The position numbers and the translations under genes are program-made. The notes beneath the pieces were generated by a model. It was not told the origin of the DNA and made no database searches. It was given only the letters and a program-made list of their open reading frames with translations. A DNA stretch of 64,000 nucleotides, from positions 1 through 64,000 of the forward strand of contig JBFMCT010000006.1 of NCBI GenBank assembly GCA_040754375.1. Direction: 5' to 3'. This DNA comes from Actinomycetota bacterium (GTDB taxonomy: Bacteria; Actinomycetota; Acidimicrobiia; Acidimicrobiales; AC-14). Positions within the stretch are counted from its first letter, which is position 1; each line of letters opens with the position of its first letter. Below are positions 2,992 to 17,749 of this stretch, piece by piece.

Positions 2992-3013
2992 CCCGAACCC
3001 GGCCCGCGCCCGC

Positions 3014-5611
3014 TCATCGCACCTCCAGTGAGGCGCTGGTGTAGTCCACCGTGTCGTCCGCTGGGGCCCACGGCGCCCATGTCCCGGCCGGGCTACGGAC
3101 CGACCACTGCTCGTCCTCGCGCGATCGGGCGGCCACCGTGACCCACTGGCCGCCGATCAGGTCGACCAGCACCTGGTGGCGCCCGATGATGGCCTCGATG
3201 CGGTCGCGGGGCGCCTGGATGACGGCGAGCAGGCGAAGGGGTTCGTGCATACGCCGGTCCCCGACACCCACGGCCTGGGCCGGGAGGCCGACCTGGAGGT
3301 CGCCCCCCTCACCGAGGACGACGCCGATGCCGCCGACCGGGTTGTGAAGCGTCTTGTCCCCCGCGCCGAACTGATCGGGGTCGACCGACGAGAAGTAGTA
3401 CTGGGCGGATATCCACTGGGCCACGACGAGGGGCGCGGTGAGGATCGTCTCCAGGGCGGTCCCGTCGCCATCGGCCTCGGCGTCGTAGGAGTGCAGGAAG
3501 ACCCGGCACGCGAGGTCGAGCCCGGCCGTGATCGAGCGGGGGCCCACGACGAAGGCAGCGTTGCCCGCCAGCCCCCATTCCGGCCGCACCTGCGCCCAGT
3601 CGTGCCCGCGGGCCCGGACCTTCCCGGGCTCTCCCGGGAGCCGCCCGGCGCGCTCGCGGGCCAGCCGTGCGCCAGCAGTGGCCACGTCGCGCTCGAAAGC
3701 GGCCACTAGGGGCTCGTGGCTTTCCGGTACGGCCTGGCGGTCGAGAACGGACACCACGTCCGAGACGGTGTCATGCTGGGCGGCAACGAAGAGGGTGTCC
3801 TCGGGCACCACTATCCCGCCCTCGGCCAGGCCGGCACGGGCCCCGGGGTCGTTGAGGATGGCCGCGGCCATCCGGGCGCTGGGACCTCCGGGGGCGCCGC
3901 CGCACGCGCCACAGTCATAGGAGGACGCATGCGGGTTGTTGAGGTTGTAGCTGCCGTGCCCGCAGAGGACCACGAGCCGGGCGAACCGGGTCAGGCCCAT
4001 CGTCCGGATGATGCTCGTCGCGAACGACACCCGCTCTTCGACGGTCAAGCCGAGCCCGTCGCCGTCCTCCGCTTCGACGGCCGGTCGTGTCTGGGGAGGG
4101 GCGACCAGGCGGGCACTCATCGCTTTGAGGCGCCGCACCAGTCCCGGGGCCAGCGTTCTGGCCGCGGCTGCCGGGCCCATCACGTAACCCGCGGCCTCGG
4201 CCAGGGCGAACGGGCCACCCGGGCTGCCCTTGGCGGCGTGGAAGGCTTCGTGCCCTGCGCCGGCAGCTCGCTGGGCGGTCAGGTAGCCGAGAGCGCCGTC
4301 GGCCACCACAGGCTGCTCGGCGACCTCGTGGCGGGGTGTCAACAGCACCGGGCAACGCGGTTGGCTCAGCCTGGACCCTAGGGGCCGCCAGCGCACGGGT
4401 ACCCCGAAGAACCCGGCGAACCCGAGGGTGTCGTAGGGCCCGCAGGCCTGGAGGTGCCGGTGTAGCCCCTCTGAGCGCACGTCGATACAGAAGGCCACCT
4501 GCACGTCCGGTCGATCGGTCTGCGGGCCCGGCCCCGGTCGGCTCAATAGGCCCAGGAGACGGTCGCGGAAGTTGCCCTCCTGGGCATCGAGCCACATCGA
4601 GTTCCGTACCCGCGGGGGTACCTGCTCCAGCACGCCCCGCACCGCGGAGGTGACGAGCGGGTCGTCGGGCCGGCTACCCAGAGCGTCCAGCACGGCCGCC
4701 ACTCGGCGATCGCGGAGCCTCTCGTCCTCCAGCGCGGCGCTCTGCTGCGCTGCCGGTGGGGCGGCGGAGGCGCTGTGAGCCGCGGCGGCGGTCGCGGCCA
4801 CCTGGGCGGCGAGCAGGTCCACGAGGCGTAACCGGGGACGGTGGCTGTCGGGCGGCGCCCACTCGTCATGCCAGCGGGCGTACCCCGCCCAACCCGGGAG
4901 CCGCCCAAGGTGGTGGCGAAGGGCGTCGACTCGGTCTGGCCCCACGCCCAGCGTCTCGAGGGACACGTCGAGGGCCTCGACTGGTTGATCAGGTAGCCCC
5001 GCCAGCCAACCCATTCCCTCCGGGCCTGCGAGGCGCCGGAGCCGCCGGTCGTAGCTCGCCAGCTCCCGCCACGCACGGAAGAAGCCTCGATCACGGCCGG
5101 GCATGGGCCACGGGACGTGGGCCTCGTCGACGAAGACCGCGCACCACGCAGCCACCAACTCGCTGACCGCTCGGACGGTCTCGACGTCGGTGCGGCCGAG
5201 CCGATCGCGGCTGGCGTCACGGGGCTTGTCGTCGGGCCCCAACAGAAGGTCCAAACGGATGATCTCCACGGCATCGACCGTTCGATCGCCGATCTCGATG
5301 CCGGGCTGGGAGGCCAAGGTAGGGCCAGCCCCGACAATGGCGCGCCGCAGGTCCGCGTCGGAGACGGACCCGCGCTCGTAGGCCTCCCGGGACGCGGCCA
5401 TGGTCAGGTGGGTGCGTGCCCGCAACCACCGCCGGGCGACCGCCGTGGCGTCGTCGAACGAGAGGTGCTGCAGGCCGAGAAGGGGGTTGACCGCCACGAA
5501 GCTGGTCAACGGCCAGAGCGGCGCGACGATCTCGGCCGCCATCGAGATGTCAGCGAGTAGCTCGGCGTCGCGGGCCGATCGTCCGCGGTGGTCGTCGTTC
5601 CGGTCGTTCAT
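3014..5611 (-). CDS. dabA: DabA, inorganic-carbon pump subunit (DUF2309)
   Basis: An 865-aa soluble or peripheral subunit of the DAB inorganic-carbon pump. In characterised DabA the site resembles a beta-carbonic anhydrase, with zinc held by Cys, Asp, His and Cys. Those positions are visible: FCIDVRSE (Cys about 374, Asp 376), LCGHGS (His about 551) and YDCGACGG (Cys about 565). The family idea is one-way hydration of CO2 to bicarbonate, driven by ion flow through DabB. The start overlaps the dabB stop by 4 bp (ATGA at 5608-5611), so translation is coupled. It is the last gene of the cbb/cso operon, directly linking carbon uptake to the carboxysome. Confidence 0.95.
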   Translation of the reverse strand: MNDRNDDHRGRSARDAELLADISMAAEIVAPLWPLTSFVAVNPLLGLQHLSFDDATAVARRWLRARTHLTMAASREAYERGSVSDADLRRAIVGAGPTLASQPGIEIGDRTVDAVEIIRLDLLLGPDDKPRDASRDRLGRTDVETVRAVSELVAAWCAVFVDEAHVPWPMPGRDRGFFRAWRELASYDRRLRRLAGPEGMGWLAGLPDQPVEALDVSLETLGVGPDRVDALRHHLGRLPGWAGYARWHDEWAPPDSHRPRLRLVDLLAAQVAATAAAAHSASAAPPAAQQSAALEDERLRDRRVAAVLDALGSRPDDPLVTSAVRGVLEQVPPRVRNSMWLDAQEGNFRDRLLGLLSRPGPGPQTDRPDVQVAFCIDVRSEGLHRHLQACGPYDTLGFAGFFGVPVRWRPLGSRLSQPRCPVLLTPRHEVAEQPVVADGALGYLTAQRAAGAGHEAFHAAKGSPGGPFALAEAAGYVMGPAAAARTLAPGLVRRLKAMSARLVAPPQTRPAVEAEDGDGLGLTVEERVSFATSIIRTMGLTRFARLVVLCGHGSYNLNNPHASSYDCGACGGAPGGPSARMAAAILNDPGARAGLAEGGIVVPEDTLFVAAQHDTVSDVVSVLDRQAVPESHEPLVAAFERDVATAGARLARERAGRLPGEPGKVRARGHDWAQVRPEWGLAGNAAFVVGPRSITAGLDLACRVFLHSYDAEADGDGTALETILTAPLVVAQWISAQYYFSSVDPDQFGAGDKTLHNPVGGIGVVLGEGGDLQVGLPAQAVGVGDRRMHEPLRLLAVIQAPRDRIEAIIGRHQVLVDLIGGQWVTVAARSREDEQWSVRSPAGTWAPWAPADDTVDYTSASLEVR

Positions 5612-7278
5612 ATCGCTCGCGTCGATCGGACCGTCTCCACGCGGGGCTGAAGGTGGCGGGTCTCCGGCACCGGGGCGACCCCGGTCGAGCTACCGCGCGT
5701 CGTCAACGGGACGGCGACGGGGGCAGAGGTGAGCACGAGGGCGTATACCCGGCTGCGCAGCGCGCGCATCCGCTCCCCCGGGGCCAGCCAGAAGGCGGCC
5801 ACGACAACCGCGATCACCGCCAGGGTCGCCACCAGGAGAGCGGCGCTGACCGGTTCGGCGATGTCGGCCGGCAGCGCCGGGGCGACGAAGGTCTCCAAGG
5901 TCGTGAGCCCGCCGATGTAGGCGAACACACCGGCGGTGGCTCCGAGGGCGGCCGCTACCACTGCCCCCACGGGCCGGAACGGCGCCGAGCGCATCCACCC
6001 GTCGGCCGCCCGGGCTGCCGTTGCCCACGCGAACACCGTCACGAGCACGAACGCGGCTGTTGACATGTGCGGGTGGAAGGCGGCGTACGCGGCCCATAGG
6101 GCCAAGGCGGGAACGACCACCGCGACCGCCAGCCGGGGCCTGCGGGCGACGACCCGGGGGGCCGGGCGCTGGTGGTGACGGTGATGGGCGGCCACCGAGC
6201 CCCCGGCGGCCAGGAACAGCGCGGCCTTGTACATGCCGTGCCCGACGACGTGGAGCAACGCCGCCGCGAGCGCACCGATGGCCACCTGGACCGTCATGAA
6301 CCCCATCTGGCCGGCCGTCGACCAGGCCAGGTTGCCCTTCACGTCGCTGCGTACCAGCTTCACGGAGGTCGCGTAGCAGGCCGTGATCGCGCCCGCCGCG
6401 AAGGCGAGGTGCGTGGCCAGGGCCGACGACCCGAACACCGGGGCCAGCCTTACCAGCAGGACGCCGGCCCCGTTGACCACGCCCGCGTGGAGCAGCGCCG
6501 AAACCGGCGTGGGGGCGGCGATCGTGGATGGCAGCCACCGGTGCAGCGGCACGAGGGCGGACCGAGAGACGCTGGCGACCGCCAGAAGCACGGCGACCAC
6601 CGGCAAGACGCTCCAACCGAGCAACGGGATCGACTCGTTCGCCAGCTCGGTGGCAGCCCCGGCTGGTGAGCGGAGATCGACCTCGCCGGCGGACACGATG
6701 GCCAGCAGGGTGGCCAGCAGGAGCGCGCCGTCGCCCACCTGGAGGCTACGCCTGACCCGTTCGGCAGCACGGGGCGCCGGTTGCCAGGTGGCCCGGTGCG
6801 CCACCAGTTTCGCCAGGGCCGCGCCGGCCACGATCCACGAAGCACACAGCACGCCGAGAGTGGCCGCGAAGGCCACCGAGGTGGTCGCCGCAGTCAGGAG
6901 CGAGGCCAGCACGAAGAAGCGACGCCCTCGGAGGTCCCCCTGCATGTTGCGGCCGGCGAACGACTGCACGACCAGGCCGACGCCGGTGGTGAGCAGGCCG
7001 AGCACACTCGTGACCCGGCTCGCATGGAAACCGACGAGGGCGTCGCCGTCACTCCCCTCGACGACCGCCGCGAAAGGTCCGTCCACAGCCACGACGACGG
7101 CTACGGCGACCGCCACCGCGAAGGCGGCCGCGGCCGCCCCCACCGCCCACCGGCAGCTCCGCTCCCCGACCCTCGCCGTGGGGGTCGACCAGCCAACGGG
7201 GGTGGCGAGGGCTATTGCCCCGGCGGCGATGGCAGGCAGGGCCGGGACGAGGACCACCAATGCCTCGGTCAGAGTCAT
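5608..7278 (-). CDS. dabB: DabB, NuoL/MrpA-like membrane subunit of the Ci pump
   Basis: A 556-aa polytopic membrane protein with roughly 14 hydrophobic segments and the proton-conducting transporter domain of NuoL/NuoM/Mrp proteins: PLHRWLPSTIAAPTPVSALLHAG, followed by the conserved Lys/His-bearing helices (VKLVRSDVKGNLAWSTAGQMG, LHVVGHGMYKAALFLAAG). Next to dabA this defines the DAB system rather than respiratory complex I; no other nuo genes are nearby. It would use cation flow to energise DabA at the inner face of the membrane. It starts 15 bp after the NUDIX-domain gene and overlaps dabA by 4 bp. Confidence 0.93.
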   Translation of the reverse strand: MTLTEALVVLVPALPAIAAGAIALATPVGWSTPTARVGERSCRWAVGAAAAAFAVAVAVAVVVAVDGPFAAVVEGSDGDALVGFHASRVTSVLGLLTTGVGLVVQSFAGRNMQGDLRGRRFFVLASLLTAATTSVAFAATLGVLCASWIVAGAALAKLVAHRATWQPAPRAAERVRRSLQVGDGALLLATLLAIVSAGEVDLRSPAGAATELANESIPLLGWSVLPVVAVLLAVASVSRSALVPLHRWLPSTIAAPTPVSALLHAGVVNGAGVLLVRLAPVFGSSALATHLAFAAGAITACYATSVKLVRSDVKGNLAWSTAGQMGFMTVQVAIGALAAALLHVVGHGMYKAALFLAAGGSVAAHHRHHQRPAPRVVARRPRLAVAVVVPALALWAAYAAFHPHMSTAAFVLVTVFAWATAARAADGWMRSAPFRPVGAVVAAALGATAGVFAYIGGLTTLETFVAPALPADIAEPVSAALLVATLAVIAVVVAAFWLAPGERMRALRSRVYALVLTSAPVAVPLTTRGSSTGVAPVPETRHLQPRVETVRSTRAI

Positions 7279-7293
7279 CTGATGGCCCCTCGA

Positions 7294-8292
7294 TCAGCGC
7301 GTGGTCGCGTCGCCGCCCGGCCAGGGAAGGCGGGAGGCGTCGACTGCCACACCCAGCGCCCCCGCGTCACGTGCAGCGCGGACGTCGTCGGGCCCGAGGC
7401 CCCCTTGGGCGTACACGGGTACCGGGCTGGCTTCGACCAGCGCCCGCAGTCCGGGCCATCCCAGCGCCTGGTCGCCAGGGTGGGAAGGTGTGGGGAGAAC
7501 GGGCGACAGGAGCGCCACGTCGGCCCCGAGAGCTGCGGCCCGCCCGAGGTCGCCGGCGCTGTGAGCGGAAACGGCCCACAGGCGAGCCGGAGGCCGCTCC
7601 GTCATGCGAGCCAGGGCGGCGGCGGTGCTATGCACACCGCAGGCCCCTGCCTGCCGGGCCTCGAGTGCCGTCCCCGACAGGAGCAGGCGCAGGTCGGTCC
7701 CCCGCCGGAGCTGGCGCAGCCGGCGGGTGAGCTGGACCCGCTGGGCGGGAGCGAGCTCCGGTGCCCGGACTATCACCAAGCGCACACCTCTGGCCGCCAG
7801 CGACGGGATCGTGGCCAGCGTCTCTTCCAATGCGCCCGGCGCCCGGGCGACACGGGCGACGGCCACCAGGTCGGGGAGCGCCAACGTGGTGAGGGCGAGC
7901 TCGTTGCTGGGCAGCAACGGCCCGACCGTGGGGCGCCCCGGGTCCACCCAGGCCAGCCGTTGGCCTTCCCTGCCGCGGGGCTCACCTGACCACCGGCACA
8001 CGTGGAACCAGTGCAATCGCACCCGTTTAGCCGGGAAGTCGTGCTCGTACACCCTCCACGGCGCAAGTTCGAGGGCCTGGACGCCGACCTCCTCGAGCAG
8101 CTCGCGAGCCGCGGCCTGGGCCGCGCTCTCGCCGGGGTCGACTTGGCCCCCGGGCAGCTCCCAGAAGCCGGCCGCGTCCTTGCCGGGCTTACGCTCGGCC
8201 AGCAACACGCGCCCGTCCGGAGCTCGGAGAACGCCGACCGCGACGTCGACCACGGGACGACCGACTAGCGGTCGGCGGCGGCAGGGCAGCAT
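7294..8292 (-). CDS. NUDIX hydrolase fused to a ThiE/TenI-like domain
   Basis: A 332-aa two-domain protein. The N-terminal half is a MutT-type NUDIX hydrolase with a complete Nudix box (GGQVDPGESAAQAAAREL, then LEEVG). The C-terminal half looks like thiamine-phosphate synthase/TenI: LWAVSAHSAGDLGRAAALGAD, LLSPVLPTPSHPG, GWPGLRALVEAS, PVYAQGGLGPDDVRAARDAGA. This architecture is known for MutT-ThiE-like proteins in proteobacteria. The ATG at 8292 overlaps the upstream stop as TGATG, which favours it over the GTG at 8304. Its substrate is unknown. Co-transcription with RuBisCO and shell genes suggests clean-up of a phosphorylated by-product or cofactor, but that is inference. Confidence 0.85.
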   Translation of the reverse strand: MLPCRRRPLVGRPVVDVAVGVLRAPDGRVLLAERKPGKDAAGFWELPGGQVDPGESAAQAAARELLEEVGVQALELAPWRVYEHDFPAKRVRLHWFHVCRWSGEPRGREGQRLAWVDPGRPTVGPLLPSNELALTTLALPDLVAVARVARAPGALEETLATIPSLAARGVRLVIVRAPELAPAQRVQLTRRLRQLRRGTDLRLLLSGTALEARQAGACGVHSTAAALARMTERPPARLWAVSAHSAGDLGRAAALGADVALLSPVLPTPSHPGDQALGWPGLRALVEASPVPVYAQGGLGPDDVRAARDAGALGVAVDASRLPWPGGDATTR

Positions 8293-8507
8293 CAGTCCGG
8301 CCACACCCGTTCCGGGTGCAGCGCCCGATGTGTCCTGGGCGACACCGTTGTCCCCCCTCCTCCCGGGCCGGCGGGCCCGGTGCTCACCGGCGGGGCCGAA
8401 CCCTGGTCCGCAGTGCCCGTCCGACCCCCTCGGGTGCCGTCCTTGGTCGCCGCCGCCGTCCTCGCCTGTCGCGCGGGGATGGCCGCGCTGGGTTTGGCGG
8501 GTGTCAT
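8292..8507 (-). CDS. 71-aa disordered protein inside the cso operon, possible McdB-like
   Basis: The ATG at 8507 overlaps the acRAF stop (ATGA, 8504-8507) and the stop at 8292 overlaps the next ATG (TGATG). Third codon positions are about 80% G/C. This double coupling makes a real gene likely. The product is rich in Ala, Gly, Pro, Thr, Arg and Lys, has no predicted globular or membrane part, and ends HPERVWPD. McdB proteins, which position carboxysomes with the ATPase McdA, are small, disordered and share a Trp at or near the C-terminus, and alpha-McdB genes sit in cso operons. No McdA/ParA gene is in the window, so this assignment is a hypothesis only. Confidence 0.5.
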   Translation of the reverse strand: MTPAKPSAAIPARQARTAAATKDGTRGGRTGTADQGSAPPVSTGPAGPGGGGTTVSPRTHRALHPERVWPD

Positions 8508-8785
8508 CTCAACGCCGCGTCCACGTTGGCGAGAGCCCCGGCACGGGCGGCGAACATCCGTGCCTCCATCCCGACGACCGCTCCACCGGGCCCGTAGACC
8601 GTGACGTTGACATGCGTCCGGCTGAAGCTGAGGTCCGGGTAGAGGCCGGTCTCCTTCGACAGGCAGGCGAGCCGGTCGAGGAAAGCCCGTGCCTCGGGGT
8701 AGGCGGCAAAGTCGAAGCGGCGGTACAGCATCGACGGCTGCGCGACCTCTGTCCAGCCCTCCGGCCCTTGGGGTTCCATGGTCAT
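8504..8785 (-). CDS. acRAF, PCD-like alpha-carboxysome RuBisCO assembly factor
   Basis: A 93-aa protein with the pterin-4a-carbinolamine dehydratase fold: YRRFDFAAYPEARAFLDRLA, then GLYPDLSFSRTHVNVTVYG. Genuine dehydratases carry His-His-Pro where this protein has Gly-Leu-Tyr-Pro, so dehydratase activity is unlikely. PCD-like proteins without catalytic residues in cso operons are the acRAF family, which help RuBisCO large subunits assemble. The ATG at 8785 has a GAGGAG ribosome-binding site 6-8 bases upstream. It lies 80 bp after csoS1 and overlaps the 71-aa ORF by 4 bp. Confidence 0.85.
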   Translation of the reverse strand: MTMEPQGPEGWTEVAQPSMLYRRFDFAAYPEARAFLDRLACLSKETGLYPDLSFSRTHVNVTVYGPGGAVVGMEARMFAARAGALANVDAALR

Positions 8786-8865
8786 CTTGGTCTCCTCACG
8801 ATGAATGGGATCCTCGACGCCGAGCCCGGCCGGCTGGCGTCGCCCCTTCCGCGGTGAGCTGACGA

Positions 8866-9198
8866 TCAGCTCGCCGCCTGGCCGGAGATCTGGGTGTCGT
8901 CGGCACCGGTCGGAAGGATCTGCTCCACCTCGGTGTGCGGGCGGGCAATGATGTGGGCGGCAGCCAGGCCGTCACCAACCCGCTCGCAGGCGTCAGCGCC
9001 GGCACGGACTGCGGCGTTGACGGCACCCGTCTCGCCCCGGACGAGCACGGTGACATAGCCGCCCCCGACGAACTGGCGACCGATCAGCCTCACCTCGGAA
9101 GCCTTGGTCATGGCGTCGGCAGCCTCGATCGCCGGGACGAGCCCCCGGGTTTCGATCATGCCCAAGGCGATACCCATCTTCTCATTCTGGCTGGCCAT
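8866..9198 (-). CDS. csoS1: CsoS1, hexameric BMC shell protein
   Basis: A 110-aa single BMC-domain protein forming the facets of the carboxysome shell. Typical CsoS1 features: ALGMIETRGLVPAIEAADAM, KASEVRLIGRQFVGGGYVTV, VRGETGAVNAAVRAGADA and HIIARPHTEVE. I chose the ATG at 9198 because GGAGG touches the ATG at 9204 directly but stands 6 bases from 9198. Proteobacterial cso operons usually carry two or three csoS1 copies plus csoS1D; only this one is present here, so other hexamer or trimer genes must lie elsewhere or the facet is built from one protein. Confidence 0.96.
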   Translation of the reverse strand: MASQNEKMGIALGMIETRGLVPAIEAADAMTKASEVRLIGRQFVGGGYVTVLVRGETGAVNAAVRAGADACERVGDGLAAAHIIARPHTEVEQILPTGADDTQISGQAAS

Positions 9199-9255
9199 CT
9201 TCATCCTCCATTAGTCAGTTGGATCTCGGGTGTAACAGGGGTCAGTCGGACCGAG

Positions 9256-9516
9256 TCAGGCGCGCCAGCGCTCCTCGCTCCAGTGGTCGATGATCCCGCC
9301 GATGGTCAGGTCGGTGGTGATCCTCGGGTCGCCGGCGGCTATGCGGGCCGCCGAGATGCCGATGGTGATCACGAAGTCGCCCGGCTTGGCGCCGACCGGG
9401 TCGAGGGCAACTTCGAGGTTCCCGCTGTGGTCCTCGACCACCCGTAGCGACTTGTCGGCCAGCGAGGGAGTTCGATGGGTGGCGACGAGGTCGCTGGCGA
9501 CGCGATGGATGTTCAT
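9256..9516 (-). CDS. csoS4B: CsoS4B, pentameric vertex protein
   Basis: An 86-aa BMV (EutN/CcmL-type) protein capping the icosahedral vertices. Seen: MNIHRVASDLVATHRTPSL, VALDPVGAKPGDFVITIG, SAARIAAG and LTIGGIIDHW. The ATG at 9516 overlaps the csoS4A stop by 4 bp. About a 57-bp gap with a GGAGG site separates it from csoS1. It is a paralogue of the neighbouring CsoS4A, as in all cso operons. Confidence 0.95.
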   Translation of the reverse strand: MNIHRVASDLVATHRTPSLADKSLRVVEDHSGNLEVALDPVGAKPGDFVITIGISAARIAAGDPRITTDLTIGGIIDHWSEERWRA

Positions 9517-9818
9517 CGCCGCCTCCCGCCGTCCGGCGACCGGGGGGCCGGTGCCTCCCCCTGGCCCTCCTCGTCGTCCCAGTAGTCGATGATGCCGACG
9601 ATGGTGAAGTCGCTCGGGTAGTCCTTGTTGCCGGCGGCCTCGCGCGCCGCCGAACTGCCGACCACGATCACCCAGTCGCCGGGCTTGCACCCGACAGGGT
9701 CGACAGCCACCTGCTTGCCCCCGCCCCGGCGCTCCTGCACGACCAACAGCCGGTGGTGGTCCAGCCCGCCGATGCGAGCGGTGGCCACGAGGGTCCCTTC
9801 GACACGGCAGATCTTCAT
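9513..9818 (-). CDS. csoS4A: CsoS4A, pentameric vertex protein
   Basis: A 101-aa BMV-domain protein. Seen: MKICRVEGTLVATARIGGLD, VAVDPVGCKPGDWVIVVGSS, AAREAAGNKDYPSDFTIVG and IIDYWDD. It carries a 20-residue Pro/Glu/Arg-rich tail missing from CsoS4B. The start overlaps csoSCA (ATGA at 9815-9818) and the end overlaps csoS4B, so the three are translationally coupled. Confidence 0.95.
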   Translation of the reverse strand: MKICRVEGTLVATARIGGLDHHRLLVVQERRGGGKQVAVDPVGCKPGDWVIVVGSSAAREAAGNKDYPSDFTIVGIIDYWDDEEGQGEAPAPRSPDGGRRR

Positions 9819-11356
9819 CGCTGTGCCCCCTGCTCGACCACATCGAGGCGCGCCCGCCCGCGCGCTCGGACGACGCTCTGGGTGACGAGACCGGCAGGGC
9901 CGGCCGCCCCCGCGTACCGGGTCTCGATGGCCGAGGCCAGGCGCAGCGCGCGTTCGCGCGCCCCGTCGCTGGCACCGGGAATGCGCTCGTCGTAGGCCAC
10001 GTGCACGAGCACGGGGACAGCGAGGCCCTGGGGCGAGTTGGTCTTGCGCAGGATCCCGATCCCGACGTCGAGGTCGACGGCCCCTTCTTCGACCGTGCGC
10101 ATCTGCGCCTGGAAGGCGAGGTTGCGCAACTGGACGTCGTCCATGGCGTCGCCGGCCACGACCAGCCTCTCGGTGTGCCCCGGGTCCGCGTAGCTCCCGC
10201 CGCTCCAGCCCCGCACGGCGTCCACCTGGCCGATGTTGTTCTTCAGCAGGTAGCCGCACAGCCAGCGCATGCCCTCGGTCGGCGCGTCAGCCGCGTCCAC
10301 ACCGGCACTGTCGGCTACCTCCTGTCGGATCAGCTCCTTGGCGGTCTCACGATCGAGGCTTGCCGTGCGCTCGTAGAGCGTGGCGCTGGAGACGAAGCGG
10401 CCCACGTCCGTCCTGCCGGCCGCGTCGGGGACGTGGACGCGGATGGCGTCTGTGTCGGTGTCCACCCCGACAAGGAGCGTGGCCACACTCGCGGCGCAGC
10501 ACTGCGTGGACTCGATGGCGCCCTCGAGCTCGCGGAGCCGGTCGAGCAAGGCTGTGGCGGCCCGCACCTCGTCACTGCCGTGGGCGGCACACCCTTGGCG
10601 GCGTGGGTCGACGCTGCTGAAGTGGTACAGCCCGATCTTGAGGTAACGGGTGGGCTCGCTGGCGTCGTTGGGCCAGCCCTCGCGCCAGCGTCGCAGCTCC
10701 ACGCCTTCCCAGCGGTGCAGCGCGTCCTCGACGTTGAACATGGCACCGGCATAGGAGTCGTGCCACACGACGACTGCCGGCGGGACCCGTAGGATGTAGT
10801 CCACGGCCCCCCCGAGGCGCCCGTCGGCGCAGGAGGTGATGTCGACGGCGTGGAAGCCGAACCGCCGGATCAGCACCTCGGCGCTCTCGCCGTCGTCGAG
10901 GAGCAGCCCGAGGTCCCGGTCGAACTGGCGCTCGACCAGGTTGCAGAAGGTCCCGAGCACGCAGCCAGCGTGAACGCGACCTAACGGAAGAGGTGTGCTC
11001 CAGGACGACTCCAGCTCGGCCGTGGCGATGTCGACCCCGAGGGCGTCAACAAGCTCACGGTGGGCCTGCTCGGGGAAGCCCTCGTCGAACTGGCGTGGTG
11101 CCAGGCGCCGCAATGTGGGCTCGATCCGAGCGAAGGCAGCGCCGATCTCCTCGGCCCGCTGCCGCAGGGCGGCGCTGAGCGCTGGCTCGGCCAGTGGGTG
11201 CGCCGCGACGCCCGCCGGTGAGGTCGGGGCAGGCCCCTCGTCCCAGGGCTGTCGCCGCCCCGCCACGGGCGTCGCCACCGCCCCCGGGGTAGGCCAGGCG
11301 GCCTCATGGTCCCAGGGAGCGCGCCAACGCCCGTCAGGCTGGACGAGCGACCTCAT
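9815..11356 (-). CDS. csoSCA: CsoSCA, carboxysomal beta-carbonic anhydrase
   Basis: A 513-aa enzyme that turns bicarbonate into CO2 beside RuBisCO inside the shell. Zinc ligands can be placed: SCADGR (Cys about 176), LYHFSSVD (His about 245) and GCAAHG (Cys about 256). The spacing equals that of the Halothiobacillus protein (173, 242, 253). The Asp-Arg pair of CADGR is the family's catalytic dyad. The first 60-80 residues are disordered and Pro-rich, as expected for the stretch that contacts RuBisCO. The start at 11356 is fixed by an ATGA overlap with the csoS2 stop; longer starts would overlap csoS2 more. Confidence 0.95.
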   Translation of the reverse strand: MRSLVQPDGRWRAPWDHEAAWPTPGAVATPVAGRRQPWDEGPAPTSPAGVAAHPLAEPALSAALRQRAEEIGAAFARIEPTLRRLAPRQFDEGFPEQAHRELVDALGVDIATAELESSWSTPLPLGRVHAGCVLGTFCNLVERQFDRDLGLLLDDGESAEVLIRRFGFHAVDITSCADGRLGGAVDYILRVPPAVVVWHDSYAGAMFNVEDALHRWEGVELRRWREGWPNDASEPTRYLKIGLYHFSSVDPRRQGCAAHGSDEVRAATALLDRLRELEGAIESTQCCAASVATLLVGVDTDTDAIRVHVPDAAGRTDVGRFVSSATLYERTASLDRETAKELIRQEVADSAGVDAADAPTEGMRWLCGYLLKNNIGQVDAVRGWSGGSYADPGHTERLVVAGDAMDDVQLRNLAFQAQMRTVEEGAVDLDVGIGILRKTNSPQGLAVPVLVHVAYDERIPGASDGARERALRLASAIETRYAGAAGPAGLVTQSVVRARGRARLDVVEQGAQR

Positions 11357-13473
11357 CCTTGGGCCCCGCCCGACAGGGTCACCCTGGCCGCCGCCTTCGG
11401 GCTCCAACCGGACAGGCCGGTGACGTTCTGGCGGTCGTCACCAGGCGTCGCCCGGTCGCGGAACTTGGCTGCGCCGGCCCAGCCGTGGCGCCCGCCGCCG
11501 CCTTCGCTGGGGTTGCGCCCGGCTGCGATGTAACCCTCGGTGCCCGTCACCCGATCGTGAGCCGTCCAAGCCGACCCGGTGATCGTCCGGCCTTCGGTGC
11601 TCCCTTCGCCGGTCACCACGGGCTGCTGGGGGCCGCGGTTCGGGCGGGCCCGGAACAGGAACTCGTTGTTGCCGGTCACCTTGCCGTCGCCAACGGCGAA
11701 CGAACCGGTTATGCGCCCTGGCACGCCGGAAGCAGGCACGACGTCCTCGCCCTTCTGGGTGGCGGGACCGTCGCTCTGCTCGCCTGCCAGGCGACGGGCC
11801 AAGGCCACCGGGAAGGCCTGCACGCTGGTCCAGTCGTCAGAGGCCGGCTCCGCGGCCCGCAGGTCGCGGTAGTAGGGCGTACCCGTGACGTTCCTCTGCT
11901 GGCCGCGCTCGGTGCCCGTGACCGCCTTGGCGGGCATGGGGAGGTCACCGGTCACGGCCACACCCTGCGGCCGGGGGACCAAGCGCTGGGCCGTGGGCTC
12001 ACTCTCGTCGGGCTCGCACCAGCCGAGAACGGTGGACGGGCCCTGGTAGGGCGTGCCCGTCACCGGGCGGCAGACGCCCGGCTCGTCGCCGGTGACGTTG
12101 CGGCCGTGCTCCACGTTGGGGCCGGTGACCCGCTGGCCCCCCCAGGTCTGGGCGACCGTCACCTTGGCTCCGGTCACCGGGTCGATGCGCGCCCGGTTGA
12201 GGTGCGGGGCCGGCGCCGTGCCACCGCCGGTGCCGCCGCACTCGCTGGAGTAGGAGGCGAGATGCTGGTACTGGTCGCCCGTGATCGGGCGGCAGGCGCC
12301 CGCTTCGTTACCGGTGACGCGCCCGCTACGGCCGACGGCGGTCCCGGTGACGGCCAGCCCTCCGTCGGTGTTCTCCAGCGGGTGCCAGCGCCCGCCGTCG
12401 TCGCGGACCACCGTCCGCGGGGGCGCCAGCCTGGTGCCGACCGCCGTCGCGCCGTGAGGGTCAGCCCGGCGCGGGAACTGGGCCGAACGGTAGGTGCCGT
12501 CCTCGCGGGGGGTGAGGTCGTCGTCGAGCTTGGGCTCGGCTTCGCCCGTGATCCGAAGGTGCTCCCCCGCCTCGTCACCGGTGATGGCGACCTTGTTGCG
12601 GACCGTCGTGCCCGAGACGACCAGGCCTTGGGGGGTCCGCACCTGCCCGACCTTGCGCCCGGCACTGGAGGACGGGGAGGGGCCGTCGGCCGCGATGTAC
12701 TGCGAGCCCGAGACCGGGAGCGCGGCGCCCGCCTCGTCACCGGTGACGCGGGCACCCGGACCGATCCGCAGCCCGGTCACCCGCTGGCCGCCGTGGGTCG
12801 GCGACAGGACCACCTTGGGCGCGTAGGTCACCCTTCCCTCGCGCCCCGGGCTGCTGGCCCCCGCGCCCGGCTGGCTCACCTCGGCGGGGCGAGCCCGATC
12901 CTGCTCCGGGGCCGTCCCGGCGCCGTCGTGAGCGGGCCGCGCCCCCACCAGGGCGTGCTTGCCCTGGGAGAGCTGGCGGCGACGCTCCATGGAGAGGGTG
13001 CGGCCGACGTGGGCATCGGCCACCCCACCGGTGGACGAGGGCGGGGCGGCGGGGACGGCTTGGCCGGCGGCCGGCGGCGCCGAGCCGTTGGCCTGGCCGT
13101 GGGTGGCACCGGTGGCCGGGCCGCCATCCGCGCCGACGGCGCGCTTGCCCTGGGAGAGCTGGCGGCGACGCTCCATGGAGAGGGTGCGGCCGACGTGGGC
13201 ATCGGCGACCCCCCCGGTGGACGAGGGCGGGGCGGCGGGGACGGCTTGGCCGCCTTGAACGGCGGGGGGCGGAGGTGGCGCGGGGGTTGCGGGCGGAGGT
13301 GGCGCGGCCGTGCCCGGGCGGGTACGGGCCGCCTGGCGCCCGGGCGCCAGCGCCGACCGGCCGGCCGCGACCGCCCGGCGCCTCGCCATGGCTGCGTGGC
13401 GGCCCTCGCGGGCGACGTCTGCCAGCGCGGCCAGGTCACCGCTGTCGGCGGTCTGGACCGCGTACATCCCCAT
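11353..13473 (-). CDS. csoS2: CsoS2, disordered carboxysome scaffold
   Basis: A 706-aa intrinsically disordered scaffold joining RuBisCO to the shell. The N-region has at least three Arg-rich helical repeats (MARRRAVAAGRSAL; two copies of VGRTLSMERRRQLSQGK) of the kind that bind RuBisCO. The middle region has four or five M-repeats built on RVTG...VTGDExG...PVTG...Y; two of them keep the Cys of ACRPITG and VCRPVTG with a partner Cys (SSEC, GWCEP). The C-region has VTG repeats and ends NVTGLSGWSPKAAARVTLSG, the shell-facing end. The ATG at 13473, 2 bp after the cbbS stop with GGAG upstream, fits better than 13641, which runs antiparallel into cbbS coding. Confidence 0.93.
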   Translation of the reverse strand: MGMYAVQTADSGDLAALADVAREGRHAAMARRRAVAAGRSALAPGRQAARTRPGTAAPPPPATPAPPPPPAVQGGQAVPAAPPSSTGGVADAHVGRTLSMERRRQLSQGKRAVGADGGPATGATHGQANGSAPPAAGQAVPAAPPSSTGGVADAHVGRTLSMERRRQLSQGKHALVGARPAHDGAGTAPEQDRARPAEVSQPGAGASSPGREGRVTYAPKVVLSPTHGGQRVTGLRIGPGARVTGDEAGAALPVSGSQYIAADGPSPSSSAGRKVGQVRTPQGLVVSGTTVRNKVAITGDEAGEHLRITGEAEPKLDDDLTPREDGTYRSAQFPRRADPHGATAVGTRLAPPRTVVRDDGGRWHPLENTDGGLAVTGTAVGRSGRVTGNEAGACRPITGDQYQHLASYSSECGGTGGGTAPAPHLNRARIDPVTGAKVTVAQTWGGQRVTGPNVEHGRNVTGDEPGVCRPVTGTPYQGPSTVLGWCEPDESEPTAQRLVPRPQGVAVTGDLPMPAKAVTGTERGQQRNVTGTPYYRDLRAAEPASDDWTSVQAFPVALARRLAGEQSDGPATQKGEDVVPASGVPGRITGSFAVGDGKVTGNNEFLFRARPNRGPQQPVVTGEGSTEGRTITGSAWTAHDRVTGTEGYIAAGRNPSEGGGGRHGWAGAAKFRDRATPGDDRQNVTGLSGWSPKAAARVTLSGGAQG
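12957..13252 (-). repeat. Pair of near-identical 110-bp direct repeats in csoS2
   Basis: Bases 12957-13066 and 13143-13252 are nearly identical (a few mismatches around the Thr/Pro codons), offset by 186 bp. Each encodes one RuBisCO-binding N-repeat plus the following Gly/Val/Ala linker. Identity at silent positions points to recent duplication or ongoing gene conversion rather than conserved protein sequence alone. Confidence 0.9.
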
Positions 13474-13475
13474 CG

Positions 13476-13814
13476 TCAGGTTGCTCCGCCGCGGTAGACG
13501 ATGAAGGCCGTGCCCTGGGACTGCAGGAAGTTGTCGTAGCCCAGAAGGCGCACGTGGTGACCGGGGTTGGCCCGGTGGCAGGCCTCGACCTCGGCCATGA
13601 CCTTGTCGACCGACCGCTCCCCGAAGAGCGGCAGCTCCCACAGGTACCAGAAGTTCGACAGCGCCTTCTCGGGCTCGGTGTGCTCGATGGCCGGGTTCCA
13701 GCCCGACCCGACGAGGTACGCGACCTGCTGGCGGAGCCGCTCGGGCGTCATCGGTGGCAGGTACGAGAAGGTCTCCCCACGGCGCTGGGTGGGCCCGTAG
13801 GCTTCAATGTGCAT
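13476..13814 (-). CDS. cbbS: RuBisCO small subunit
   Basis: A 112-aa small subunit that caps the L8 core. Seen: [64 protein letters not shown] and LLGYDN. It lacks the long hairpin insertion of plant small subunits, as usual for carboxysomal form IA. It follows cbbL by 62 bp with a GGAGAG site before the ATG, and is followed almost without a gap by csoS2. Confidence 0.97.
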
Positions 13815-13876
13815 GTCAATCTCTCCTTGAGAGGCCGGGAGGGCGAACCGGTGACCAGGCCCGGACCGGTTCGCGA

Positions 13877-15292
13877 TCAGGCGACGTCGAGCTTGTCCAC
13901 GGTGTCGAACTCGAACTTGATCTCTTTCCAGGTCTCCATGGCGATCGCCAGCTCGGGGCTGTGGCGGGCGGCCTCGGTCAAGATCTCGCGACCCTCGCGC
14001 TCGACCTCACGGCCCTGGTTACGGGCCTCCACGCACGCCTCGAGGGCCACCCGGTTGGCGTGAGCGCCGGGCGCGTTGCCCCATGGGTGGCCCAGCGTGC
14101 CGCCGCCGAACTGCAGGCAGGCGTCGTCGCCGAAGATCGCCACCAGCGCGGGCATGTGCCAGACGTGGATGCCCCCCGAGGCGACGGGCATGACCCCGGG
14201 CATCGATGCCCAGTCCTGGTCGAAGAAGAGGCCGCGCTTGCGGTTCTCGGGGATGAAGGACTCCCTCATCGTGTCGATCCAGCCGAGCGTGGCCTGGCGG
14301 TCGCCTTCGAGCTTGCCGACCACGGTGCCGGCGTGGAGGTGGTCACCGCCGGACAGGCGCAGGCACTTGGCCAGCACCCGGAAGTGGATGCCGTGCATGG
14401 GGTTGCGGTCGACCACGGCGTGCATGGCCCGGTGGATGTGGAGCAGCATGCCGTTCTCCCGGCACCAGTTGGCGAGGCCCGTGTTGGCCGTGAAGCCGGC
14501 GGTGAAGAAGTCGTGCATGATGATCGGAGCGCCGAGCGACTTGGCGAACTCGGCCCGCTTGTACATCTCTTCGGGCGTCGCCGCCGTGACGTTGAGGTAG
14601 TGGCCCTTGCGCTCGCCCGTCTCGGCCGCGGCCTTGTGCACCGCTTCCATCACGAACTCGTAACGGTGGTTCCAGCGCATGAACGGCTGGCTGTTGATGT
14701 TCTCGTCGTCCTTGGTGAAGTCGAGCCCGCCTCGCAGGCACTCGTAGACAGCCCGCCCGTAGTTCTTGGCCGACAAGCCGAGCTTGGGCTTGATCGTGCA
14801 GCCCAGCAGGGGCCGCCCGTACTTGTTGAGGCGGTCACGCTCGACCTGGATGCCGTTGGGCGGGCCGCCACAGGTCTTCACGTAGGCCACCGGGAAGCGA
14901 AGGTCCTCCAGGCGCAGGCTGCGCACAGCCTTGAAGCCGAAGACGTTGCCCACGAGCGAGGTCAGGACGTTTACGACCGAGCCTTCCTCGAACAGGTCCA
15001 TGGGGTAGGCCACGAACGCGAAGAAGGCGCTGGCGTCGCCCGGCACCTGCTCGATCCGGTAGGCCCGGCCCTTGTAGTAGTCGAGATCGGTCAGCAGGTC
15101 GGTCCACACCGTGGTCCACGTGCCGGTCGACGACTCGGCCGCCACCGCCGCGGCCGCCTCCTCGCGCGGCACGCCGGCCTGGGGGACCACCTTGAAAACC
15201 GCCAGAAGGTCGGTATCCAGCGGGACGTAGTCCGGGGTCCAGTAGGTCTTGGCGTAGTCCTTCACGCCGGCCTGGTAGGTCTTCTCTGCCAC
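13877..15292 (-). CDS. cbbL: RuBisCO large subunit, form I
   Basis: A 471-aa catalytic subunit fixing CO2 onto ribulose 1,5-bisphosphate. Seen: the first Lys motif [11 protein letters not shown], the carbamylation and metal site [16 protein letters not shown] (Lys about 194, Asp 196, Glu 197), His of IHRAMHAV, loop 6 [11 protein letters not shown], and the phosphate-binding SGGIHVWHM and [12 protein letters not shown]. Operon context (cso genes) indicates form IA. The start is GTG at 15292 with GAGGAGA five bases upstream. It is the first gene of the operon, transcribed from the promoter at 15378-15406. Confidence 0.98.
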
Positions 15293-15377
15293 GCGGTTCT
15301 CCTCGGCTGAAGCCCGGTCTGGGCCCGGTCTCGGACTCCCACTACGGGGTGTGACGCCTGTCTGGGTAGCTACTAGG

Positions 15378-15406
15378 ACCCTAACGCCGCCCCTTCGCAG
15401 CGTAAA
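15378..15406 (-). promoter_or_regulatory. cbb/cso operon promoter
   Basis: On the minus strand TTTACG (15406-15401), a 17-bp spacer and TAGGGT (15383-15378) form a sigma-70-type promoter about 85 bp upstream of the cbbL GTG. An inverted repeat sits just upstream of the -35 box, a good place for CbbR. The same -10 hexamer occurs in the promoter proposed for fur. Confidence 0.55.
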
Positions 15407-15410
15407 ATGA

Positions 15411-15426
15411 ATACATGGTTATGTAT
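15411..15426. promoter_or_regulatory. Candidate CbbR operator in the cbbR-cbbL intergenic region
   Basis: ATACAT-GGTT-ATGTAT is a perfect inverted repeat with 6-bp arms, centred near -47 of the proposed cbb promoter. A third ATACAT lies at 15512-15517 and another inverted repeat, GGACAT-N7-ATGTCC, at 15488-15506. Several half-sites spread through a divergent promoter region suit a LysR-type tetramer. The 252-bp gap 15293-15544 holds nothing else recognisable. Confidence 0.5.
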
Positions 15427-15544
15427 CATCGCTGTTCGCTTATGAGTAGAGGGCTCTCCGAAACCGGTCCAGACCAGCGCGCTTGCAGGACATGACCTCG
15501 ATGTCCGGCTCATACATACGTAAACAGTTATCGTTAGCCCCACC

Positions 15545-16474
15545 ATGGCCATGACGCTGAGCCAACTCCGTACGTTCCTGGCCGTGGCCGACTCGGGGTC
15601 GGTCCGGACCGCAGCCGAGTCGCTCTTCGTGTCTCAGCCGGCGGTGTCGGCCGCCATCGCCTCCCTCGAGCGGGAGCTGAGGGTGGCCCTCGTCGCTCGC
15701 CACGGGCGTGGCCTGCGGCTCACCGCGGCCGGGACGGCCTTCGCCGACGACGTGCGCACCAGCCTCGGCCTGCTCGACCAGGGCTCTCGCCGCGCCCGCA
15801 GCATCGAGGACCCAGCTCGGGGCACGGTCCGGCTGGTTGCCGTGGCCACAGCCGCCGAGCGGGTGCTCCTACCCGTCGTCGCCCGCTTCCGCGAGCAGCA
15901 CCCCGACGCCGGGGTCACTATCGAGGTCGGCAACAGGACGACCGTCTGGGAGGCCTTGCGCCACCGCCAAGCGGACCTCGTGGTAGCGGGGCGCCCGCCT
16001 GCGGCCGTACCGGCAGACACCCTGGCCCGGGGCGAGAACCGGCTCGTGGTCATCGGGCCCGCCTCCGGTACGCCGCCCACGGACCGCGCCAGCGCACTCC
16101 GTGAGGCGGCCCAGGAGACCTGGCTGTTGCGCGAACCGGGGTCCGGGACGCGGGCCGCAGCCGACTCCTTGCTCGCCGACCTGGGCATCGACCCACCCAC
16201 GATGATCCTCGGCTCGAACGCCGCCGTCGAGCGGGGCGTGGAGATGGGCCTGGGCGTGGGGCTGATCTCCCTGGACTCCGCAGCCGATCGCATCTCCGGG
16301 GGGTCGGTGAAGGTATGGGCGTGCCCTGGCACCCCTATCGACCGGCCGTGGCACCTGGTCTGCCACTCGGGTGAACCACTCGGTCCGACGGCGCTTGCCC
16401 TGGCGAGGTCGATGGTGGGGCCCGGCGGCAGCCTGAGGGCGACGGCCGAAGGCAGGCGGGTGCTGAGGAACTGA
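15545..16474 (+). CDS. cbbR: CbbR-type LysR regulator
   Basis: A 309-aa LysR-family regulator. The N-terminal winged HTH reads LSQLRTFLAVADSGSVRTAA, ESLFVSQPAVSAAIASLE and LRVALVARHGRGLRLTAAG. The C-terminal periplasmic-binding-like domain would sense a metabolite such as RuBP or NADPH in CbbR proteins. Divergent placement opposite cbbL is the classic cbbR arrangement and is the main reason for the name. ATGs at 15545 and 15551 are both possible; neither has a clear ribosome-binding site. Confidence 0.88.
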   Translation: MAMTLSQLRTFLAVADSGSVRTAAESLFVSQPAVSAAIASLERELRVALVARHGRGLRLTAAGTAFADDVRTSLGLLDQGSRRARSIEDPARGTVRLVAVATAAERVLLPVVARFREQHPDAGVTIEVGNRTTVWEALRHRQADLVVAGRPPAAVPADTLARGENRLVVIGPASGTPPTDRASALREAAQETWLLREPGSGTRAAADSLLADLGIDPPTMILGSNAAVERGVEMGLGVGLISLDSAADRISGGSVKVWACPGTPIDRPWHLVCHSGEPLGPTALALARSMVGPGGSLRATAEGRRVLRN

Positions 16475-16583
16475 GCGGCCCGCAGCTCGTCCCCCAGCGG
16501 GAAAGCCCACTCTGGTGGCGGGCAGGCCGGAGGACTAACCTCGGCCTTGATCTGACCTGATTTCGAGGAGGACGACCAACGAC

Positions 16584-17615
16584 ATGGGCCACAACAGCGA
16601 GCTCGCCGCCATCGCCAAGCAGATGGTCGCTCCGGGGCGAGGGATCCTGGCCGCCGACGAGTCCAACGCGACGATCGGCAAGCGGTTCGGGGCTCTCGAC
16701 ATCGAGTCGACCGAAGAGAACCGCCGGTCCTACCGCAACACCCTTCTGTCCACGCCGGGCCTCGAGGAGTACATCAGCGGCGTGATCCTCTACGACGAGA
16801 CGATCCGCCAGAAGGCCGACGACGGGACCCCGTTCCCCAAGATGCTCGAGCAGCGGGGCATCCTGCCGGGCATCAAGGTCGACACCGGCTCCAAGGAGCT
16901 GGCCGGCTTCCCCGGTGAGCAGGTCACCGAGGGCCTCGACGGCCTGCGGGAGCGCATCGCCGAGTACGTCAGCCTGGGCGCCAAGTTCGCCAAGTGGCGG
17001 GCCGTGATCGTGATCGACTCGGCCAACGGCCTGCCCACCGACGGCGGCATCGCGGCCAACGCCCACGCCCTGGCCCGCTACGGCGCCCTGTGCCAGGAAG
17101 GTGGCCTGGTGCCGATCATCGAGCCCGAGGTGCTCATGGACGGCGAGAACGACATCCACACCTGCTACGAGGTGACCGTGCGCACCCAGCGCCGGGTGTT
17201 CGCCGAGCTGGCCGCCCTGCGGGTCGACTTCGCGGGCATGGTCCTCAAGCCGTCGATGGTCATCTCCGGCAAGAAGTGCCCCGAGCAGGCCCCGCCTGAG
17301 ATGGTGGCCCGCAAGACCCTCAAGTGCCTTTACCGGACGGTCCCGGCGGCCGTGCCCGGCATCGCCTTCCTGTCGGGTGGGCAGTCGGCCGACGTGGCCA
17401 CGCTGCACCTCGACCTCATGAACAAGCAGGGGCCCCACCCCTGGGTCCTGACCTTCTCCTACGGCCGGGCCCTGCAGAACGAGGCCCTGAGCACTTGGAG
17501 GGGCGCGCCCGACAACGTGGGCGAGGCCCAGAAGGCGGCCAGCCACCGGGCCAAGCTGACCTCGATGGCGGCCACCGGGTCCTACGACCGGGAGATGGAG
17601 ACCGCCGGGGTCTAA
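16584..17615 (+). CDS. Class I fructose-bisphosphate aldolase
   Basis: A 343-aa Schiff-base aldolase joining DHAP with GAP (or with erythrose 4-phosphate) in the Calvin cycle and gluconeogenesis. Seen: GRGILAADESNATIGKRF, SGVILYDETIRQ, GIKVDTGSKEL, AKWRAVI, EPEVLMDG, the Schiff-base Lys in GMVLKPSMV (about Lys222), FLSGGQS and LTFSYGRALQ. An AGGAGG site lies about 12 bases before the ATG. Location downstream of cbbR suggests a Calvin-cycle role. Autotrophic proteobacteria usually use class II here. Confidence 0.95.
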   Translation: MGHNSELAAIAKQMVAPGRGILAADESNATIGKRFGALDIESTEENRRSYRNTLLSTPGLEEYISGVILYDETIRQKADDGTPFPKMLEQRGILPGIKVDTGSKELAGFPGEQVTEGLDGLRERIAEYVSLGAKFAKWRAVIVIDSANGLPTDGGIAANAHALARYGALCQEGGLVPIIEPEVLMDGENDIHTCYEVTVRTQRRVFAELAALRVDFAGMVLKPSMVISGKKCPEQAPPEMVARKTLKCLYRTVPAAVPGIAFLSGGQSADVATLHLDLMNKQGPHPWVLTFSYGRALQNEALSTWRGAPDNVGEAQKAASHRAKLTSMAATGSYDREMETAGV

Positions 17616-17627
17616 GGCCCCCTAGAT

Positions 17628-17644
17628 CGGCGCTTCGCGCCGAG
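17628..17644 (+). terminator. Hairpin after the aldolase gene
   Basis: TCGGCGC-TTC-GCGCCGA forms a perfect 7-bp stem with a 3-base loop, 12 bp after the aldolase stop. There is no T tract, so it is a candidate intrinsic terminator of the GC-rich type. A second hairpin (17750-17772) follows before the convergent kinase gene. Confidence 0.5.
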
Positions 17645-17749
17645 CGGCCGACCTGCCCCTGACCAGCACCTTTGCAGTGTCGCCGAGCCGCGAACGGGGC
17701 GGTCGGCCGCCTGGGGAGGGTTTAGACACCAGCCTCCTAGCCCGACGCC

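Follow-up and report, generated by a model that had tools for sequence, protein, structure and literature searches.

McdB normally links carboxysomes to McdA, the motor that positions them. Published alpha-McdB proteins are 51-169 amino acids long, are disordered over nearly their whole length, have a low hydrophobicity and no coiled coil, and share an invariant WPD within the C-terminal consensus R(V/I)WPD (PMC11321042). Association with carboxysomes depends on the C-terminal Trp, and in the Halothiobacillus protein the last 10 residues are enough for docking (PMC11321042). Type 1 is exemplified by McdB of Halothiobacillus neapolitanus, which has McdA as its partner. The first 20 residues of this protein, a predicted helix, are both required and enough for it to bind McdA; experiments single out K7 as the key residue, and in silico predictions add L4, L8 and I12 as important (PMC12204374). 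Type 2 proteins are proteobacterial orphans encoded in the cso operon, from genomes that carry mcdAB elsewhere (PMC8262871). McdB has also been proposed to act independently of McdA, and in Synechococcus the loss of mcdB is worse than the loss of mcdA (PMC8406218). Though a role beyond positioning is suspected from the orphan McdBs and from Synechococcus, the presence of McdA in the cells studied confounds the test. Our literature search returned descriptions of alpha-McdAB from proteobacteria only, a result from a search of limited coverage that does not by itself prove novelty, and a text search combining carboxysome, McdA and Acidimicrobiia found no paper.

Here we describe a small gene in the cso operon of a bacterium of the Acidimicrobiales. 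The analysed stretch of 64,000 nucleotides (the window) contains, on the minus strand, an open reading frame at 8292-8507, with its ATG at 8507 and its TGA at 8292. The product, MTPAKPSAAIPARQARTAAATKDGTRGGRTGTADQGSAPPVSTGPAGPGGGGTTVSPRTHRALHPERVWPD, has 71 amino acids, begins MTPAKPSAAI and ends RALHPERVWPD. The operon (3014-15292) runs cbbL, cbbS, csoS2, csoSCA, csoS4A, csoS4B, csoS1, acRAF, the ORF, NUDIX-TenI, dabB and dabA. The stop of acRAF, a pterin-dehydratase-like Rubisco assembly factor (8504-8785, minus strand), overlaps the start of the ORF by four nucleotides in the sequence ATGA (8504-8507). The stop of the ORF in turn shares one base with the start codon of the NUDIX gene (7294-8292, minus strand), in the sequence TGATG with the NUDIX start at 8292. 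The latter gene encodes a fusion of a NUDIX domain with a TenI/TMP-synthase domain that scores above the cut-off of the NCBIfam model PRK08999, and it is wedged between the ORF and dabB/dabA. No Pfam or NCBIfam model matches the ORF itself. The original prediction, made from the letters of the window, had placed the gene at these positions with both overlaps and the end HPERVWPD, all of which we could reproduce. It had also called the GC3 coding-like. The value is indeed high, with GC1/2/3 of 0.69/0.78/0.81, but the dip in GC2 that its neighbours show is missing from the ORF, and the six frames of the surrounding 14.7 kb (3001-17700) hold 123 stop-to-stop segments of at least 71 codons. Thus, openness and GC3 say little when taken alone. 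The disordered composition that had been noted is borne out by a GRAVY of -0.76 and by 69% disorder-promoting residues. An AlphaFold model run from four sequences likewise has no secondary structure, with a mean pLDDT of 59 and a pTM of 0.12.

Stronger evidence comes from related genomes, whose loci were located by profile and family searches. The order acRAF, ORF, NUDIX is kept in the window genome (G000) and in six others, which we call clade 1 and which together span three families and two orders. These are G004 and G008 from the family of the window genome, G018, G074 and G111 from a second family, and G617 from another order. A scan of wider contigs for acRAF returned three loci only, apparently those of the G074, G004 and G008 contigs. 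Most of the acRAF-profile matches at E values of 1e-6 to 1e-9 in the order were set aside, since they are probably ordinary pterin dehydratases; the loci fetched for them had no CsoS1, ParA or WPD signature. In clade 1 the ORF is 71-96 amino acids long, mostly starts with MTPAKRR or MTPARRR, and ends in VWPD and a stop in all seven genomes. When the seven nucleotide sequences were aligned blind to frame, all gaps were multiples of three, and the last four codons (VWPD) differed only synonymously, by GTG/GTC and CCG/CCC. A test put forward with the original prediction was the retention of frame and Trp in related cso operons, and both are kept in seven of the seven genomes. Because of this conservation, the in-frame indels and the invariant VWPD-stop, the ORF is more than a chance opening in GC-rich DNA, an explanation that we reject; judged by sequence conservation, it is a real gene. 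A middle stretch, LLGPxGEPxA, is found in most clade-1 proteins (L119, L138, L041, L042) and is missing from the window copy. It could be another short binding motif.

The properties of the predicted protein coincide with those of the alpha-McdBs. Its 71 residues fall within the published range, it is disordered, and it is encoded in the cso operon between acRAF and NUDIX. The tail ERVWPD, part of a putative shell-docking motif, HPERVWPD, that is encoded with the stop codon at 8292-8318 (minus strand), matches R(V/I)WPD. Across the 3.5 Mb of the window genome, (V/I)WPD followed by a stop occurs at one site, which is this ORF. The gene order supports the same identity. In G040, G044, G089 and G345, which belong to the same order as the window genome, acRAF is followed by a ParA-type McdA, a small VWPD protein and then CbbQ, and the tails of these McdA-linked proteins are PPLAVWPD, HPRRVWPD, HPKRVWPD or HLLAVWPD. 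Nitrobacter hamburgensis has acRAF, ParA, a 'hypothetical protein' that ends FPDRIWPD, and CbbQ. Thus, in these relatives and in Nitrobacter, mcdA lies directly between acRAF and mcdB. A further genome, G159 (85% complete), has bfr, acRAF, McdB and CbbQ with mcdA missing; its McdB (L122:10962-11195) has 77 amino acids and one Cys and ends CEVWPD. The overlap with NUDIX does not explain the tail, because in G159, G044, G089 and Nitrobacter the tail is spelled by other codons ahead of a CbbQ gene that does not overlap it, and we therefore reject the idea that the overlap forces the motif. Since it is only in the tail that the full-length protein resembles the McdA-linked McdBs, homology rests on the tail together with synteny. 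These features argue strongly that the ORF encodes an alpha-McdB. The guess of an actinobacterial McdB is therefore supported by the exact C-terminal motif, by size and disorder and by the acRAF-McdA-McdB synteny. What does not hold is a canonical McdAB partnership, since no McdA was found in the genome and the protein has no McdA-binding helix.

The absence of McdA, which had been noted for the window, extends to the whole genome. A profile built from three McdA-linked loci matched at E values of 1e-78 to 1e-117 in G040, G044, G089 and G345. It gave no McdA in clade 1, whose seven genomes are 95-98% complete and had no match better than E 7e-9, or about 1e-8. The window genome is 97% complete, and neither a McdA nor a second McdB was found in it by this profile and the search for (V/I)WPD-stop, so that a second mcdAB elsewhere in the genome is rejected. 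A search for an orphan ParA or McdA had also been suggested. ParA-type ATPases are present, but by inspection they look ordinary (Soj has ParB as its neighbour, another match is CpaE/TadZ-like, and a ParA is flanked by an RHH-like protein), and no match lies beside a VWPD protein.

The N-terminus points in the same direction. Within the first 30 residues, [LIVM]xx[KR]Lxxx[VILT] is matched by 5/5 McdA-linked McdBs, a count that is partly so by construction, as the pattern was defined after viewing the linked sequences and PMC12204374. It is matched by 0/8 solo McdBs, which shows only that the motif is absent, because shuffled sequences seldom match either (at 0.001-0.006). AlphaFold, run from a single sequence, places a helix at residues 5-19 of the linked McdB of G089; run from four, it places none in the window protein. 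The N-terminal 25 residues of the latter (8433-8507, minus strand) contain Pro and are still basic, with a net charge of +3, and may bind weakly to some ParA. With no McdA found in the genome and no N-terminal helix of this kind, the protein is not one half of a canonical McdAB pair.

Compared with the described types, the gene has features of each. It shares with type 1 the cso operon, the small size, the disorder, the R(V/I)WPD tail and the slot right after acRAF(-McdA), but it is actinobacterial, is not directly downstream of an mcdA, comes from a genome in which no McdA was found, and is without the L4-K7-L8-I12 helix. With type 2 it shares a place in a cso operon without adjacent mcdA and the lack of a McdA-gripping N-terminus. 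However, type 2 proteins are described as second copies in genomes with mcdAB elsewhere, and the searches of the window genome turned up neither mcdA nor another McdB; those of the six clade-1 relatives likewise gave no McdA. Type 2 proteins have no charged N-terminus, and that of the window protein is still somewhat basic. With the McdAB systems of G040, G044, G089 and G345 the locus has in common the taxonomic order, the operon slot and the VWPD tail, but those systems differ in carrying mcdA, bfr and cbbQ as well as the N-terminal helix motif. We file the ORF as an alpha-McdB of a putative solo kind, apart from both type 1 and type 2.

While the identity of the protein is strongly supported, its mechanism is what we infer. 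We think it probable that this alpha-McdB works without McdA, as a shell-docking carboxysome coat or adaptor. The protein would be co-translated with acRAF and the NUDIX protein and would dock on the carboxysome shell through its C-terminal VWPD. The docking partner would probably be CsoS1, the major shell hexamer (8866-9204, minus strand), a role that we deduce from the work on published alpha-McdBs (PMC11321042). The disordered body, rich in Pro, Ala, Gly and Arg, would then reach into the cytoplasm. It may be a passive surface coat that stops carboxysomes from sticking together. Alternatively, the protein may be an adaptor, the conserved MTPAKRR-type N-terminal end of which binds a different partner. 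In neither case would it feed the canonical McdA Brownian ratchet.

A different motor is an unlikely alternative to such a McdA-independent role, though the strongest of those that we considered. The basic N-terminus could engage another ParA-type ATPase, such as the chromosomal Soj, or a McdA that was not recognised. The basic patch MTPAKRR/MTPARRR is conserved in most members, and ParA-family ATPases are there to be engaged. However, none of these ATPases stands out as McdA-like and specific to the clade, their surroundings are those of ordinary ParA proteins as described above, and the N-terminus has no hydrophobic/Lys helix.

It is also rather improbable that mcdB is a functionless remnant, on its way to being lost after the loss of mcdA. 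The McdA-binding helix is gone, the window copy is the shortest of the seven, with two large in-frame gaps relative to its relatives, and dN/dS is 0.68 over the whole ORF. In the 12 N-terminal codons dN/dS is 0.46, and the pattern fits a disordered protein with constrained ends, though it gives little backing to the idea that the body is under selection. Against decay, the frame is open throughout clade 1 with indels in multiples of three, both the MTPAK/RR start and the VWPD end are conserved, and the second lineage, G159, retains its McdB. A short ORF translated only to couple acRAF to NUDIX, its product having no function, would account for the tight ATGA and TGATG overlaps, but it is very improbable, since the tail is an alpha-McdB motif that is kept ahead of CbbQ as well and since the acRAF junction varies between an overlap of 4 and a spacer of 1.

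These genomes seem to have lost both McdA and the gripping helix and have kept the docking tail, so that a McdA-independent function of McdB could be studied by itself. The findings also place both McdAB and solo McdB in Actinomycetota. In addition, they suggest a sorting rule, by which VWPD tails with an N-terminal helix would indicate motor-linked McdBs and those without it solo McdBs.

The relationships among the operons bear on how the solo McdBs arose. In an operon tree rooted on Nitrobacter, from which G018 was left out for lack of data, the clade-1 genomes group together with full support and G159 groups with G099. A single clade of all solo McdBs is rejected (AU p = 2e-6). The simplest reading is that McdAB is ancestral and that mcdA was lost at least twice, in clade 1 and in G159. 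In G099 the cso contig ends inside acRAF, and the only other VWPD-stop site in that genome (C80) is unlike McdB. We give even chances to the broader idea that motor positioning was dropped and that a McdB-derived surface protein with a separate selected role, as shell coat or adaptor, has arisen at least twice in Actinomycetota after the loss of mcdA. If so, nature would have separated the two functions, leaving the role that McdB is proposed to have without McdA.

The operons differ in other genes as well. Those of clade 1 (that of the window and L119, L138, L139, L141 and L041) are without the bfr and cbbQ/cbbO of the McdAB-type actinobacterial operons, and no CbbQ_C domain was found genome-wide in the seven clade-1 genomes. 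In G040 (L023), three near-identical csoS1 genes stand in tandem upstream of bfr-acRAF-McdA-McdB. The operon of G617 (L119) nests within clade 1 on the tree even though this genome belongs to another order, and acRAF had no match in 29 other genomes of that order. A horizontal transfer of the whole cso operon to G617 is therefore likely.
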